DNA from: Fidelibacterota bacterium
GTDB lineage: Bacteria; Pseudomonadota; Alphaproteobacteria; Rhodospirillales; Rhodospirillaceae
Assembly (NCBI GenBank): GCA_947472795.1
Contig: CANJBL010000002.1
Location: 186,001 to 250,000 of the forward strand
Reading direction: 5' to 3'
Length of the DNA: 64,000 nt
The notes beneath the pieces were generated by a model. The model saw nothing but the letters and a program-made list of their open reading frames with translations. It was not told the DNA's origin and ran no database searches. Every line of letters starts with the position of its first letter. Position 1 is the stretch's first letter. Positions 21,007 through 47,492 of this stretch are shown one piece after another. Made by a program: the position numbers and the translations under genes.

Positions 21007-21200
21007 GTTGGGGGATGGGCGAGCGCATTTTTCGCTGCGACTTAATCTTAATGCGGGCCAAGTCTTTATTGAAAAACGAGAATTTCCGCTGAGCGCTGCA
21101 ACCTTTCGTCCGGCTGGCTCTGGCCTTTGGGACGCACCGGGGCAATAATGGCCGCCAAATTCATAAGGGGCACAAAGCCTTGGGTATAGGGAGAGCGGAC

Positions 21201-21842
21201 ATGCGGAGGGGAGTGCTCGCGACCGGCGCGCTTCTGCTTGCCGTCCCCGCTTACGCCGGCACACTGGAAACCCGCGTGACATCGGCCGATGGCAAACCCA
21301 TCCCTTTTGCGGTCGTCACAGCTACGCCCACCGGGCAGGTATCTATCCCCGCCAAGTCCGGCACCAAAGCCGTGATGGTACAAGAGGGTAAGCAGTTCAT
21401 TCCCTTCGTGCTTCCGGTTCAGATTGGAACCGCGGTCGCGTTCCCGAATAAGGACCCCTTCCGGCATCAAGTGTATTCCTTCTCACCTGCCAAAGCCTTT
21501 GAACTGAAGCTCTACAGTAATGATGAGGCCAGCACCGTGGTCTTCGACAAGGAAGGCGCCGTTGCCCTGGGTTGCAACATCCATGACAACATGTTGGCCT
21601 ACGTCTATGTCGTTGGAACACCCTATTTTGCCAACTCCGACGCGAACGGCGACACCAAGATCGCCGTGCCCGCGGGCACCTATACCGTCAGGGTCTGGCA
21701 TCCCAATCAGAAGAGTGGATCACCCGACCTGACCGACGTACGCGTTACCGGCAATGACACCTTGTCGCTGACGGCCAAGGTAGAGCTCAAACGTGCCCGG
21801 ACGCAGCGCCGGCCGGGAGCCGTGGACGACAACGACTACTGA
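21201..21842 (+). CDS. Exported cupredoxin-like protein
   Basis: 213 residues from ATG 21201, with GGGAGAG upstream. A signal peptide ends in PAYAG. The body resembles methylamine-utilisation/plastocyanin-like proteins: KDPFRHQVYSF supplies His, and GCNIHDNMLAYVYV supplies Cys, His and Met in the order of a type 1 copper site. A final Ig-like stretch follows (VPAGTYTVRVWHP). It is probably a periplasmic copper electron carrier. The next gene lies beyond a repeat pair that fills the whole intergenic space. Confidence 0.75.
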   Translation: MRRGVLATGALLLAVPAYAGTLETRVTSADGKPIPFAVVTATPTGQVSIPAKSGTKAVMVQEGKQFIPFVLPVQIGTAVAFPNKDPFRHQVYSFSPAKAFELKLYSNDEASTVVFDKEGAVALGCNIHDNMLAYVYVVGTPYFANSDANGDTKIAVPAGTYTVRVWHPNQKSGSPDLTDVRVTGNDTLSLTAKVELKRARTQRRPGAVDDNDY

Positions 21843-21845
21843 CGG

Positions 21846-21924
21846 CTAGTGGAGCAGATTTGACATTCGCTATCTCCCTCGCGAAGAAACTGCGCAGCGA
21901 ATGTCAAATCGTAAGCTCCACTAG
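21846..21924. repeat. CTAG-ended hairpin repeat A1 (first half of composite A)
   Basis: Outer arms CTAGTGGAGC (21846-21855) and GCTCCACTAG (21915-21924) and inner arms GATTTGACATTCGCT (21857-21871) and its exact complement (21896-21910) give 25 paired bases with a 1x4 internal loop and a 24-nt apical loop. The bulge is on the right arm, the mirror of A2. Confidence 0.9.
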
Positions 21925-21937
21925 ATACATAAAGTTT

Positions 21938-22013
21938 CTAGTGGTCCCTTGATTCTAACATTCGCAAAATAGCACCTCGAACCGGTATGCGAATGTTAGA
22001 ATCGGACCACTAG
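21938..22013. repeat. CTAG-ended hairpin repeat A2 (second half of composite A)
   Basis: Outer arms CTAGTGGTCC (21938-21947) and GGACCACTAG (22004-22013) and inner arms GATTCTAACATTCGCA (21951-21966) and complement (21988-22003) make 26 paired bases. There is a 3-nt bulge on the left arm and a 21-nt loop. It is separated from A1 by 13 nt (atacataaagttt). With A1 it fills the gap before the EAL gene, ending 17 nt before its start. Confidence 0.9.
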
Positions 22014-22030: not shown

Positions 22031-24448
22031 GTGTTACGCAGCTTCCGCCATTTCCAAGCCAGATTGATCCTGTTTTTCGGGATGCTGTTTGTCGTCATCA
22101 GCATTGTGACGATCTTGTTGGTGCAGAACGCCATTCGCAGCAACATCTTTGAACAAGCGCGATTCCAGCTGACAGCCACCAACGAGATCTTCAACCGCCG
22201 CATGGGCGACACCTCCGACGCTCTTGCCGGCGGCTCGGCCCTGCTTGCCTCCGACTTTGGCTTCCGCCAGGCCGTCGCGACCGACGACCGCGCCACCACG
22301 CTCTCGGCCCTTCACAACCTTGCCGATCGCATCAAGGCCGACCGCGTTCTGTTGGTGTCGCTGGACTCCGAGATTCTTGCCGACACCGCTGCGCCGATCC
22401 AGGCGACACGCGCGCCGGAAAAGCCTTTCCAATTCCCCGACATGATCGACACCGCCGACGAGAAAGGCCGCGCCACAGCCACAACGGTCATCGATGGCAA
22501 GGTCTATGAGCTTGTGGTGGTGCCCGTTCTTGCCCCGCTTCCGGTGGCCTGGATCGTGGTCGGCATTGAAAGCGGCGACAAATTCCTGGTCGATCTGCAA
22601 CACGCCACGACGGTGCCGGTCGAAATCACCTTTGCCTATCAGGATCAGACAAAAGTCTGGAAAGCGCCTGCCACGACGCTGTCGTCCAACCTGAAGGATA
22701 TCCTTCTTACGCATCTGGATAGCGGGTCCGCCAACGCGCCCCAACTTCTGCCTATGGGCGGCAGCGAATATGTGACGCTCGTGGCGCCGCTCGCAGGCCC
22801 GCGTGAAGCCCCGCAAGCCAACGTCATCCTGCAGTATTCGCTGGATGTGGCGCTTGATCCTTACCGGTCGCTTTTCCTGCTGCTGATCGGCCTTGCCGTG
22901 GCCGCTTTGGTGGGCTCGCTTGGCGGCGCGGCCTTCATCGCACGCAGCGTCACGAAGCCCATTCGCATCCTGGATGAAGCCGCCAAGCGCATTCAGGCCG
23001 GCCGTTACACCGAAAAGATCGCCGTCACGCAGCTGGATGAAATCGGCCGCTTGTCGGAGACGTTCAACCAGATGATGACAGGCATCGCAGAACGCGAGGA
23101 CCGCATCGCTTACCAGGCACGCCATGATTCATTGTCCGGCCTACCCAACCGCATGTCCTTTGAAGGTCACGTGGCGGACATGATCATCGAGCGGCAGGAA
23201 AACCGGAAATCTTTCAGCGTGGTCCTTGTCCAAATCGGACGCTTCTCGGAAATCATCAATACCCTGGGCCACGACACGGCCGATCAACTGGTTCGTAAGA
23301 TCGGAAAAACCCTGCGGCAGATCGTGCCGCAATCAAATGCCGTAGCACGCCACGCCAGCAACATCTTCGCTCTGGCGTTGGATACTGATGACGCCGTTGC
23401 CGTCCATCTGATCGTCGATCGCATCCTGAACCTGTTCGATAAGTCGGTCAGTGTGGCCGGCTTCAATATCGATATCTCGGCAACCGTCGGCGAAGCGCGA
23501 TTCCCGGACCACGGCGCCACGGCGCGCACCCTGATGCAGCATGCGGATACGGCCATCTACGAAGCCAAGCAGGCCAATCGCGCCTACGCCGTTTACGACC
23601 CGCAGTCCGATCCGCACCGCCCCGAGCGGTTGTCGATGATGGGAGAGTTGCGCGAAGGTTTGGACAAAGGCCAATTCAAGTTCGTCTTTCAGCCCAAGGT
23701 CGATCTTGCGACCGAAACCATCACCGCCGTAGAGGCCTTGATCCGCTGGAACCATCCCGAGCGCGGCTTCATGGCACCGGACTTGTTCATTCCCTTGGCC
23801 GAGCAAACCGGCAATATCCGCAAGCTCACAGCATGGGCTTTAGCCGCAGCCGTGAAACAGTCACGCTCGTGGGCGGACCGCGGCATCAACATCAAGATTG
23901 CCGTCAACCTGTCGGCCCATGACCTGGGTAACCGCGACCTGCCGGCCGAGATCGCCAACCTGCTGGCGGCCTACGACGTGAGCCCGGGGCGCATCATTCT
24001 CGAGATCACCGAAAGCGCCGTTATGCAGGACCCTCTCCATGCCCTTCAGGTGCTGAAAGCCTTGAGCGACATGGGCCTGACGCTATCCGTCGATGACTAT
24101 GGTATCGGCCACTCTTCATTGGCCTACCTCAGAAAACTGCCGGTTCAGGAGATCAAGATCGACAAATCCTTTGTCATGAAGCTGGCCGACAGCCGGGGCG
24201 ATCAGATTCTGGTCAAATCGACCATTGAATTAGGTCATAATCTGGGGCTGCGGGTGACGGCGGAAGGCGTTGAAGATCGCGCCTCGCTCGAGATCCTGCA
24301 GAACCTGGGATGCGACACCGGCCAAGGCTATTTCATCAGCCGGCCCATTCCGGCGGAGGAATTCGAGGTCTTCTTCACAACGTCGCGGTGGTCGCCGCAT
24401 TTCGGCGGCCGGGGCATAACAGGTGTTGTTGCCGCCACGGGGGGATAA
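22031..24448 (+). CDS. Membrane-bound EAL c-di-GMP phosphodiesterase with degenerate GGDEF
   Basis: 805 residues from GTG 22031 (GGAG 8 nt upstream). TM1 (about 12-32), a periplasmic sensor domain (about 33-275), TM2 (about 280-303), HAMP (SVTKPIRILDEAAKRIQAG), a GGDEF-type domain whose signature is ASNIF (about 442-446) and so lacks cyclase activity, and an EAL domain. The EAL domain keeps VEALIRW (about Glu568), NLSAHDL, ITESAVM, DDYGIGHSSL, KIDKSF and AEGVED, so it should hydrolyse c-di-GMP. The degenerate GGDEF may bind GTP as an allosteric domain. Confidence 0.92.
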   Translation: MLRSFRHFQARLILFFGMLFVVISIVTILLVQNAIRSNIFEQARFQLTATNEIFNRRMGDTSDALAGGSALLASDFGFRQAVATDDRATTLSALHNLADRIKADRVLLVSLDSEILADTAAPIQATRAPEKPFQFPDMIDTADEKGRATATTVIDGKVYELVVVPVLAPLPVAWIVVGIESGDKFLVDLQHATTVPVEITFAYQDQTKVWKAPATTLSSNLKDILLTHLDSGSANAPQLLPMGGSEYVTLVAPLAGPREAPQANVILQYSLDVALDPYRSLFLLLIGLAVAALVGSLGGAAFIARSVTKPIRILDEAAKRIQAGRYTEKIAVTQLDEIGRLSETFNQMMTGIAEREDRIAYQARHDSLSGLPNRMSFEGHVADMIIERQENRKSFSVVLVQIGRFSEIINTLGHDTADQLVRKIGKTLRQIVPQSNAVARHASNIFALALDTDDAVAVHLIVDRILNLFDKSVSVAGFNIDISATVGEARFPDHGATARTLMQHADTAIYEAKQANRAYAVYDPQSDPHRPERLSMMGELREGLDKGQFKFVFQPKVDLATETITAVEALIRWNHPERGFMAPDLFIPLAEQTGNIRKLTAWALAAAVKQSRSWADRGINIKIAVNLSAHDLGNRDLPAEIANLLAAYDVSPGRIILEITESAVMQDPLHALQVLKALSDMGLTLSVDDYGIGHSSLAYLRKLPVQEIKIDKSFVMKLADSRGDQILVKSTIELGHNLGLRVTAEGVEDRASLEILQNLGCDTGQGYFISRPIPAEEFEVFFTTSRWSPHFGGRGITGVVAATGG

Positions 24449-47311: not shown

Positions 47312-47387
47312 CTAGTGTCGCGATTCCAAAGTTCGCCTACCTTCACAGCAGGCATATTTGCGAACTTTGGAATCGAGGCGACACTAG
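47312..47387. repeat. CTAG-ended hairpin repeat B1 (first half of composite B)
   Basis: Outer arms CTAGTGTCGC (47312-47321) and GCGACACTAG (47378-47387) and inner arms GATTCCAAAGTTCGC (47322-47336) and complement (47360-47374) give 25 base pairs with a 3-nt bulge on the right arm and a 23-nt loop. Same architecture as A1, different arm sequence. Confidence 0.9.
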
Positions 47388-47400
47388 AAAACATAGAATA

Positions 47401-47477
47401 TAGTGTGGCTTATGGATTTGAAGTTCCTAAAAGTGCTTGCTGAAAAAAATGATAGAAACTTCAAATCCGCCACACTA
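47401..47477. repeat. CTAG-ended hairpin repeat B2 (second half of composite B)
   Basis: Outer arms TAGTGTGGC (47401-47409) and GCCACACTA (47469-47477) and inner arms GGATTTGAAGTT (47414-47425) and complement (47457-47468). A 4-nt bulge is on the left arm and the loop is 31 nt. The left terminal C of CTAG is A at 47400; the right CTAG is intact. It is separated from B1 by 12-13 nt containing ACATA, as in composite A. The rest of the gap 47193-47492 holds no gene. Confidence 0.88.
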
Positions 47478-47492
47478 GCGGTCCCGCTTATT

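Follow-up and report, generated by a model that had tools for sequence, protein, structure and literature searches.

A dispersed family of CTAG-ended twin-hairpin elements among Alphaproteobacteria

We found that the DNA at 21846-22013 of the window (the whole stretch of 64,000 nucleotides that was analysed) is one full-length copy of a dispersed family of discrete, non-coding and non-autonomous elements that are usually 160-172 bp long. We refer to this copy as copy A and to a second copy in the window as copy B (Table 1). The best explanation, to which we give a probability of roughly 0.6, is that these are twin-hairpin elements, similar to MITEs and BIMEs, that are moved in trans by a putative enzyme that recognises hairpins.

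Plan and distribution of the element

The element is built of two inverted copies of one imperfect hairpin unit around an A/T-rich spacer of 12-13 nt. The unit has outer arms of the form CTAGTGnnnn, an inner stem of about 15 bp that usually ends in TTCGC, a loop, and a bulge of about 3 nt that is confined to the spacer side. Read from the outer end inwards, both halves are versions of this one unit, hence the mirror pair. We compared 129 distinct composites, 160-172 nt in total length, with spacers of 13 nt (85 composites), 12 nt (33), 14 nt (8), 11 nt (2) and 9 nt (1). In 125 of the 129, both hairpins have a net bulge of 1-5 nt (mostly 2-4) on the spacer side. That is, the description of the repeat as a composite of two mirror-arranged hairpins, made earlier in a sequence-only reading of the window, holds across the family.

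Table 1. Coordinates in the window of copies A and B, their parts, and the open reading frames next to copy A.
Feature	Position	Strand	Details
Copy A, complete composite (hairpins A1 and A2 with the spacer between them, ending in CTAG on both sides)	21846-22013	.	match to model R1 over 1-167 (copy A itself is 1 of the 38 model rows)
Left outer CTAG of copy A, target-site word	21846-21849	.	empty site compatible; empty site of another copy (L034); arm conservation in the family
Hairpin A1	21846-21924	+	outer arms 21846-21855 / 21915-21924; stem 21857-21870 / 21897-21910
A1 spacer-side bulge	21911-21914		GTAA, compared to a single A on the left
Spacer of copy A, A/T-rich, 13 nt	21925-21937	+	ATACATAAAGTTT; separates hairpins A1 and A2
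Hairpin A2	21938-22013	+	arms 21938-21947 / 22004-22013; stem 21951-21966 / 21988-22003
A2 spacer-side bulge	21948-21950		CTT
A2 GANTC sites	21951-21955; 21999-22003		GATTC; GAATC
Right outer CTAG of copy A, target-site word	22010-22013	.	same basis: empty sites and arm conservation
ORF with CarboxypepD_reg domain, upstream of copy A	21180-21842	+	TGA ends 3 nt before copy A
ORF with dCache_3-HAMP-GGDEF-EAL, downstream of copy A	22031-24448	+	listed GTG start 17 nt after copy A
Copy B, second subfamily of the element, reversed relative to A	47312-47478	.	
Hairpin B1	47312-47387	+	outer arms 47312-47321 / 47378-47387; stem 47322-47336 / 47360-47374; bulge GAG 47375-47377
B1 GANTC sites	47322-47326; 47370-47374		GATTC; GAATC
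Hairpin B2	47400-47478	+	arms 47400-47409 / 47469-47478; bulge TTAT 47410-47413; stem 47414-47425 / 47457-47468

The sequence-only reading had the coordinates and arms of both copies exactly right. When inverted pairs with exact arms of at least 9 bp and 20-110 nt between the arms were sought in the window, the four inner stems of A and B ranked at the top (16, 16, 15 and 12 bp; the next was 11 bp). Copy B has the design of copy A, with stem arms that have changed together, as had been claimed, but its orientation is reversed, so that B1 is the counterpart of A2 reversed and B2 that of A1 reversed. The consensus proposed for the inner stem and the CTAGTG arms does not extend to B2, in which the stem is GGATTTGAAGTT and the outer left base is mutated (ATAG, not CTAG). 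A similarity seen between the starts of two loops is weak and carries no weight. Loops are the least conserved part of the element, and in two folded copies from genome G104 they are about 4 nt long, indicating that long loops are dispensable there. Short versions were found at a minimum of 11 places in G104 (121-133 nt, including L362:1501-1621 and L369:1501-1621) and at least 4 places in G295 (120 nt; L364, L370).

Both copies in the window are predicted to fold well. As single-stranded DNA, copy A folds at -51.8 kcal/mol, compared to a mean of -15.7 for shuffled sequences (z -13.3), and copy B at -43.0 kcal/mol, compared to -14.8 (z -9.9); for each, 0 of 200 shuffles were as good. Copy A folded as RNA is also far below its shuffles (z -9.4).

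The four composites with another bulge pattern were dropped before arm conservation and spacers were counted. C, T, A and G of the CTAG are conserved at 0.95, 0.98, 0.98 and 1.00, respectively, in 250 outer arms, and at 0.96-0.99 per base in 250 inner arms (0.98 for the C). Of the 125 composites, 117 contain GANTC. The site lies in the stem, for the most part at unit positions 11 and about 59, and one half usually carries GATTC in both arms. Composites without GATTC in exactly one half (16 of the 125) were dropped before orienting, which left 109 oriented composites. The base after GATT (unit positions 11-14) is C in 109 of 118 halves; the conservation of GATT is partly ascertainment, since the oriented composites were chosen by GATTC and the scan pattern demanded GATT (not the C). 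The family consensus of the spacer, read from half P to half Q, is near CAACTNTATGATT. Scored against the IHF consensus, 31 of 110 distinct spacers have at most one mismatch, compared to 1.7 expected by shuffling. The spacer of copy A has four mismatches (by eye). An open frame runs through the element and 150 nt on each side in 2 of 122 cases.

Among 34 partial places that might have held an autonomous long version, those inspected were outer-arm hybrids, remnants or chance. Seven hybrids were identified by eye (L097, L169, L200, L225, L230, L259, L268). They include single hairpins that join the outer arms of both halves, as though a deletion had removed the spacer and the inner arms (L259:4510-4585, L225:618-690, L097:835-910, L230:2073-2146). 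At L246 there are two similar groups of three hairpins (11-336 and 2159-2485) with an 84-nt gap, which may reflect duplication or nesting.

Further copies, which the sequence-only reading had proposed to look for with a covariance model, are present in the source genome and in relatives. In the source genome, a loose pattern matched 22 times forward and 20 times in reverse, compared to 2 and 4 for the reversed control. BLAST with copy A found 13 copies of 162-168 nt there (A included), 80-100% identical, and matches in 11 of 61 genomes. With copy B as the query, five copies (B included) were full or nearly full; one more copy was matched in part, and the rest were short remnants. A third subfamily in the source genome (L064:94-259; arms CTAGTACCGC and CTAGTGCCCT) has a B-type copy as a neighbour, about 1.2 kb away. 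The covariance model, R1, was built from 38 diverse copies, A and B among them. It identified at least 22 places in the source genome (22 distinct ones among the matches listed) and had matches in 16 of 41 genomes, the source genome included; E-values in this search are rough, and stricter filters lose weak matches. The distribution among relatives is patchy. G000, G009, G006 and G002 have 45, 40, 26 and 20 matches, respectively (most elements being counted on both strands), and G001, G003, G011, G012, G014 and G016 have none.

Across the class, 15 of 241 genomes (source included) have a match to R1 at E ≤1e-6; no genome had more than 11 candidates scored, so each count is a minimum. Scanning named genomes with a pattern gave at least 120 stretches, and the named hosts are nearly all Alphaproteobacteria, which is why the class is taken to be this one. 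The titles are mostly Xanthobacteraceae, Hyphomicrobiales, Bradyrhizobium, Afipia, Nitrobacter, Mesorhizobium, Hyphomicrobium, Rhodoplanes and Caulobacteraceae. Some of these matches are due to chance, for example L149 (Hydrogenovibrio), in which the hairpin script found no hairpins. There are matches in plasmids of Labrenzia/Roseibium, Aminobacter, Agrobacterium, Ochrobactrum, Martelella, Rhizobium and Bradyrhizobium. There was no match to a Mesorhizobium copy in the plasmids searched, nor to the copy at L153 in the phages searched. Six IMG/VR viral contigs (L269-L274) match the element pattern. The genus mate G009 (L245, L074) matches a MAG, CANJLF01, that was deposited as Candidatus Marinimicrobia, and carries this element, which is otherwise found in Alphaproteobacteria; the label may be wrong.

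It had been left open at the outset that a known repeat already describes this family. An Rfam scan of the window gave no matches at gathering thresholds, and a permissive scan of copy A gave three miRNA matches, the best at 17.7 bits compared to a gathering threshold of 65. In full-text searches of the open literature, no CTAG-ended twin-hairpin family was recognised from titles and abstracts.

Insertion sites and CTAG

Wherever a relative of the same genus aligns across the site of copy A or copy B, the site is empty there; this check had been proposed along with the repeat itself. Of 16 subject loci at the A site, 15 (in 12 genomes of the genus) align straight across the junction without the element. 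The empty sequences are such as TGACGGCAGCTTTC, and the source genome has TGACGG-element-TTCTCGG. At the B site, six loci in five genomes (L297, L298 and L315, L299, L301, L305) are empty, in single alignments of 63-65% identity. Other members of the genus were unaligned at these sites or aligned only partly.

One site could be read directly. At L034 in the source genome the order is CTAG-element-CTAG, and a pair of convergent open frames have their stops in the outer CTAGs. Four relatives were alignable across this junction. G016 and G009 have a single CTAG; in G016 it forms the overlapping stops of convergent genes, and G009 aligns poorly on the left. G018 and G012 have TTAG and CTAA instead. 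At this site, then, the target was a CTAG already present, and the inserted element has a CTAG on each side. The second CTAG may be a target duplication or may be borne by the element; both fit these sequences equally. There was no empty site among the Labrenzia/Roseibium plasmids, in which all nine records carry the element at one site, and no close empty site in searches around the Aminobacter, Agrobacterium and Ochrobactrum copies.

Of the 256 tetranucleotides, CTAG is the rarest in the window outside both elements. It occurs 31 times, compared to 231 expected from base composition and 59 from trinucleotides. In 61 of 234 flanks, the outer TAG of the element serves as the in-frame stop of an open frame of 100 codons or more, compared to 40 and 32 in the other phases. 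The same phase count for ordinary CTAGs in the window is 10, 10 and 7 of 62. A remnant in the source genome also has CTAG at the end of a reading frame.

Candidate movers and known repeat families

No driver gene was recognised by eye (from first residues) in the 25 largest protein clusters from 816 ORFs at 126 loci (L149-L274). No autonomous IS that shares the ends of the element was seen among the 34 partial places or the ORF clusters. Y1_Tnp is found in the source genome and in 17 of 18 other members of the genus, with and without the element. The one RAYT-like Y1 transposase gene found in the source genome (L127:1440-2210, outside the window) is flanked by hairpins of another kind, GTCCCTGGTAC and GTACCAGGGAC. 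We do not favour a RAYT as the driver, because Y1 genes occur independently of the number of elements and the Y1 gene of the source genome has its own hairpins. DDE_3 (IS630 type) is found in 3 of 19 genomes of the genus, none of them among the four richest in R1 matches (G000, G002, G006 and G009). An IS630/Tc1-like driver is rejected for these four genomes since DDE_3 is absent from them. The patchy copy number within one genus suggests that a driver has been gained and lost, and incomplete assemblies may add to the patchiness.

The element is a MITE in the broad sense: it is short, non-coding and dispersed, and inserts precisely at a target word. It is not a REP by tag or, in the source genome, by association with a RAYT. 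By analogy, it appears to work like paired-hairpin, non-autonomous mobile DNA. RIME and Bru-RS of rhizobia and Brucella are intergenic elements of about 110 bp with two palindromes; they are G/C-rich and have other sequences.

The likeness to BIMEs that was proposed from copies A and B stands for the plan of the element and not for the tags or, in the source genome, the Y1 gene. As REP/BIME and REPIN elements moved by RAYT are described in passages of a paper (PMC3733652; see also PMC3116915), they too have mirror-paired imperfect hairpins (the arrangement in 125 of 129 composites here) with a tetranucleotide at the hairpin foot, and are mostly intergenic and non-autonomous. In contrast to the REP tag, GTAG/CGTC beside the stem, the tag of our element is CTAG, palindromic and inside the stem. 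Its hairpins are about 75-80 nt, have stems of about 25 bp, and are nearly always paired. No GTAG/CGTC foot was found, and the Y1 gene of the source genome is not flanked by the element.

The CGTC REPs of Alphaproteobacteria, in the part of PMC3733652 that treats them, are similar in being mostly alphaproteobacterial, mostly paired (HH dimers) and not associated with transposase genes, but they have stems of 8-9 bp, loops of 4-5, the CGTC tag and a CCA tail. The MITEs RUP and Correia/NEMIS, according to passages of a review (PMC2229807), are likewise short and non-autonomous with TA ends, and the 155-bp form of Correia has an IHF motif; unlike our element with its two hairpins, they make one fold by pairing of the 5' and 3' ends. 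RUP is thought, in the same passages, to use an IS630 transposase (PMC2229807), whereas DDE_3 was not found in the four genomes richest in our element. Br-REP1 and Br-REP2 of Bradyrhizobium, as given in part of PMC5082802, have other sequences.

Arm covariation, alternative explanations and implications

The arms of the element co-vary. We aligned 38 copies, 32 of the 109 oriented composites that were kept for diversity and six chosen by hand, and 97.9% of the 1899 cells are standard pairs. Both sides have changed in 29 of 50 pairs, compared to a mean of 17.3 when shuffled and at most 12 when slid, and the covariation score is 0.391, compared to 0.145 shuffled and at most 0.108 slid; neither control is perfect, as the structure was written from one alignment row and the rows are related. 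Among A-type copies within the genus, the P halves (30) have 5 paired double changes (0.4 expected) and 19 single-arm changes, and the Q halves (32) have 5 paired and 6 unpaired double changes (2.9 expected) and 25 single-arm changes. That is, single-arm changes outnumber paired ones in both halves. Stem differences among seven orthologous copies at one Labrenzia/Roseibium plasmid site are single-arm (by eye, with the last ~10 nt of four copies left out). The variant there (L275:2501-2667; arms CTAGTCAC/GTGACTAG) lies beside the stop of an SDR gene in nine records. The covariation in the alignment and the single-arm changes at a fixed site together indicate that the structure is kept long-term and that arms at a fixed site decay one by one.

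Two processes had been named earlier for arms that change together, selection on structure and a process that homogenises the arms. Template-switching at cruciforms during replication is a known process that could copy arm onto arm with no selection on structure. It would fit the excess of paired double changes over independence in the P halves (5 compared to 0.4), and among the hairpins listed there is one (L182, 6224-6296) that has lost its bulge and is now symmetric. However, template-switching would erase bulges, and 125 of 129 composites still have theirs on the spacer side. The numbers for the Q halves, the preponderance of single-arm changes in both halves, and the single-arm differences among the plasmid copies also argue against it. 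Because the bulges are kept, we favour selection on structure over pure homogenising, and we consider template-switching by itself quite improbable. Selection might instead act on an RNA at gene ends, as a bidirectional terminator, a 3' mRNA stabiliser or a processing site. This would be compatible with mobility and could account for the strong RNA fold of copy A and the enrichment of the element right at stop codons; Br-REP1 and Br-REP2 are in 3' UTR-associated transcripts, as stated in part of PMC5082802. However, the element is absent at both window sites in aligning relatives and its copy number is patchy, and structure alone does not distinguish use as RNA from use as DNA. We regard an RNA role as slightly more improbable still.

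A doubtful but possible alternative is that the element is an ordinary MITE. A DDE transposase would read the outer arms, which are inverted repeats of about 25 bp, as double-stranded terminal inverted repeats and duplicate TA or CTAG; the inner arms would be a fossil inverted duplication and the palindromes incidental. CTAG at both ends is just as expected from a 2-bp or a 4-bp target duplication by such an enzyme, and the targets of IS630 (CTAG/TA) and IS5 (YTAR) are of this kind. The single hairpins made of two outer arms might still move. However, inner arms would be unneeded for recognition of inverted repeats, yet they are conserved like the outer ones (0.98 for the C of CTAG in inner arms, 0.95 in outer arms) and co-vary, and DDE_3, the one DDE family searched, has no match in the four richest genomes. 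It is also possible, although unlikely, that the element is a branch of the CIRs (CcrM-associated intergenic repeats) of Caulobacter and Brucella. This is a question of membership and is compatible with the best explanation. CIRs, reported by Chen and Shapiro in 2003 and compared here by their description in passages of a review (PMC2229807), are likewise alphaproteobacterial and intergenic, with two hairpin arms and a linker, GANTC and TA termini. In contrast, they are about 110 bp with GANTC exposed at the terminal loop, whereas our element is usually 160-172 bp, with GATTC in the inner stem, at its foot; the gap in length is smaller for the forms of 120-133 nt that two genomes carry. The passages of the review (PMC2229807) do not mention a CTAG target, mirror bulges or arm covariation for CIRs.

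Under the explanation that we prefer, an element without its own gene would be moved in trans by an enzyme that reads folded hairpins, with a CTAG foot and a spacer-side bulge, and no fixed sequence of letters. The likeliest mode, by analogy to IS200/IS605 and REP/BIME elements, would be single-strand or hairpin-based. We propose that folding of both hairpins is required for a new copy to arise, which would make the arms drift in concert and form new subfamilies. The spacer, through an IHF-like bend, and the GANTC in one hairpin may draw the hairpins together and time the move. CTAG is rare and often at gene ends, and many insertions would thus be harmless. A bolder form of this explanation, which we think unlikely to be right in full, is that the element represents a class defined by fold. 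That is, twin-hairpin DNA would be read as structure by the putative enzyme with most letters free, the rarest word, CTAG, would be targeted so that genes sharing the stop survive, and IHF bending and CcrM methylation of GANTC would tie movement to replication in Alphaproteobacteria.

A family this widespread offers a natural test of mobile DNA that is recognised by shape rather than sequence, and CTAG at gene ends is a suggested rule for harmless insertion. The covariance model R1 can be used to mask or trace the element. The sharp differences in copy number within one genus provide a route to hunting the enzyme, and the GANTC and IHF-like features offer a way to test whether transposition is linked to the cell cycle.
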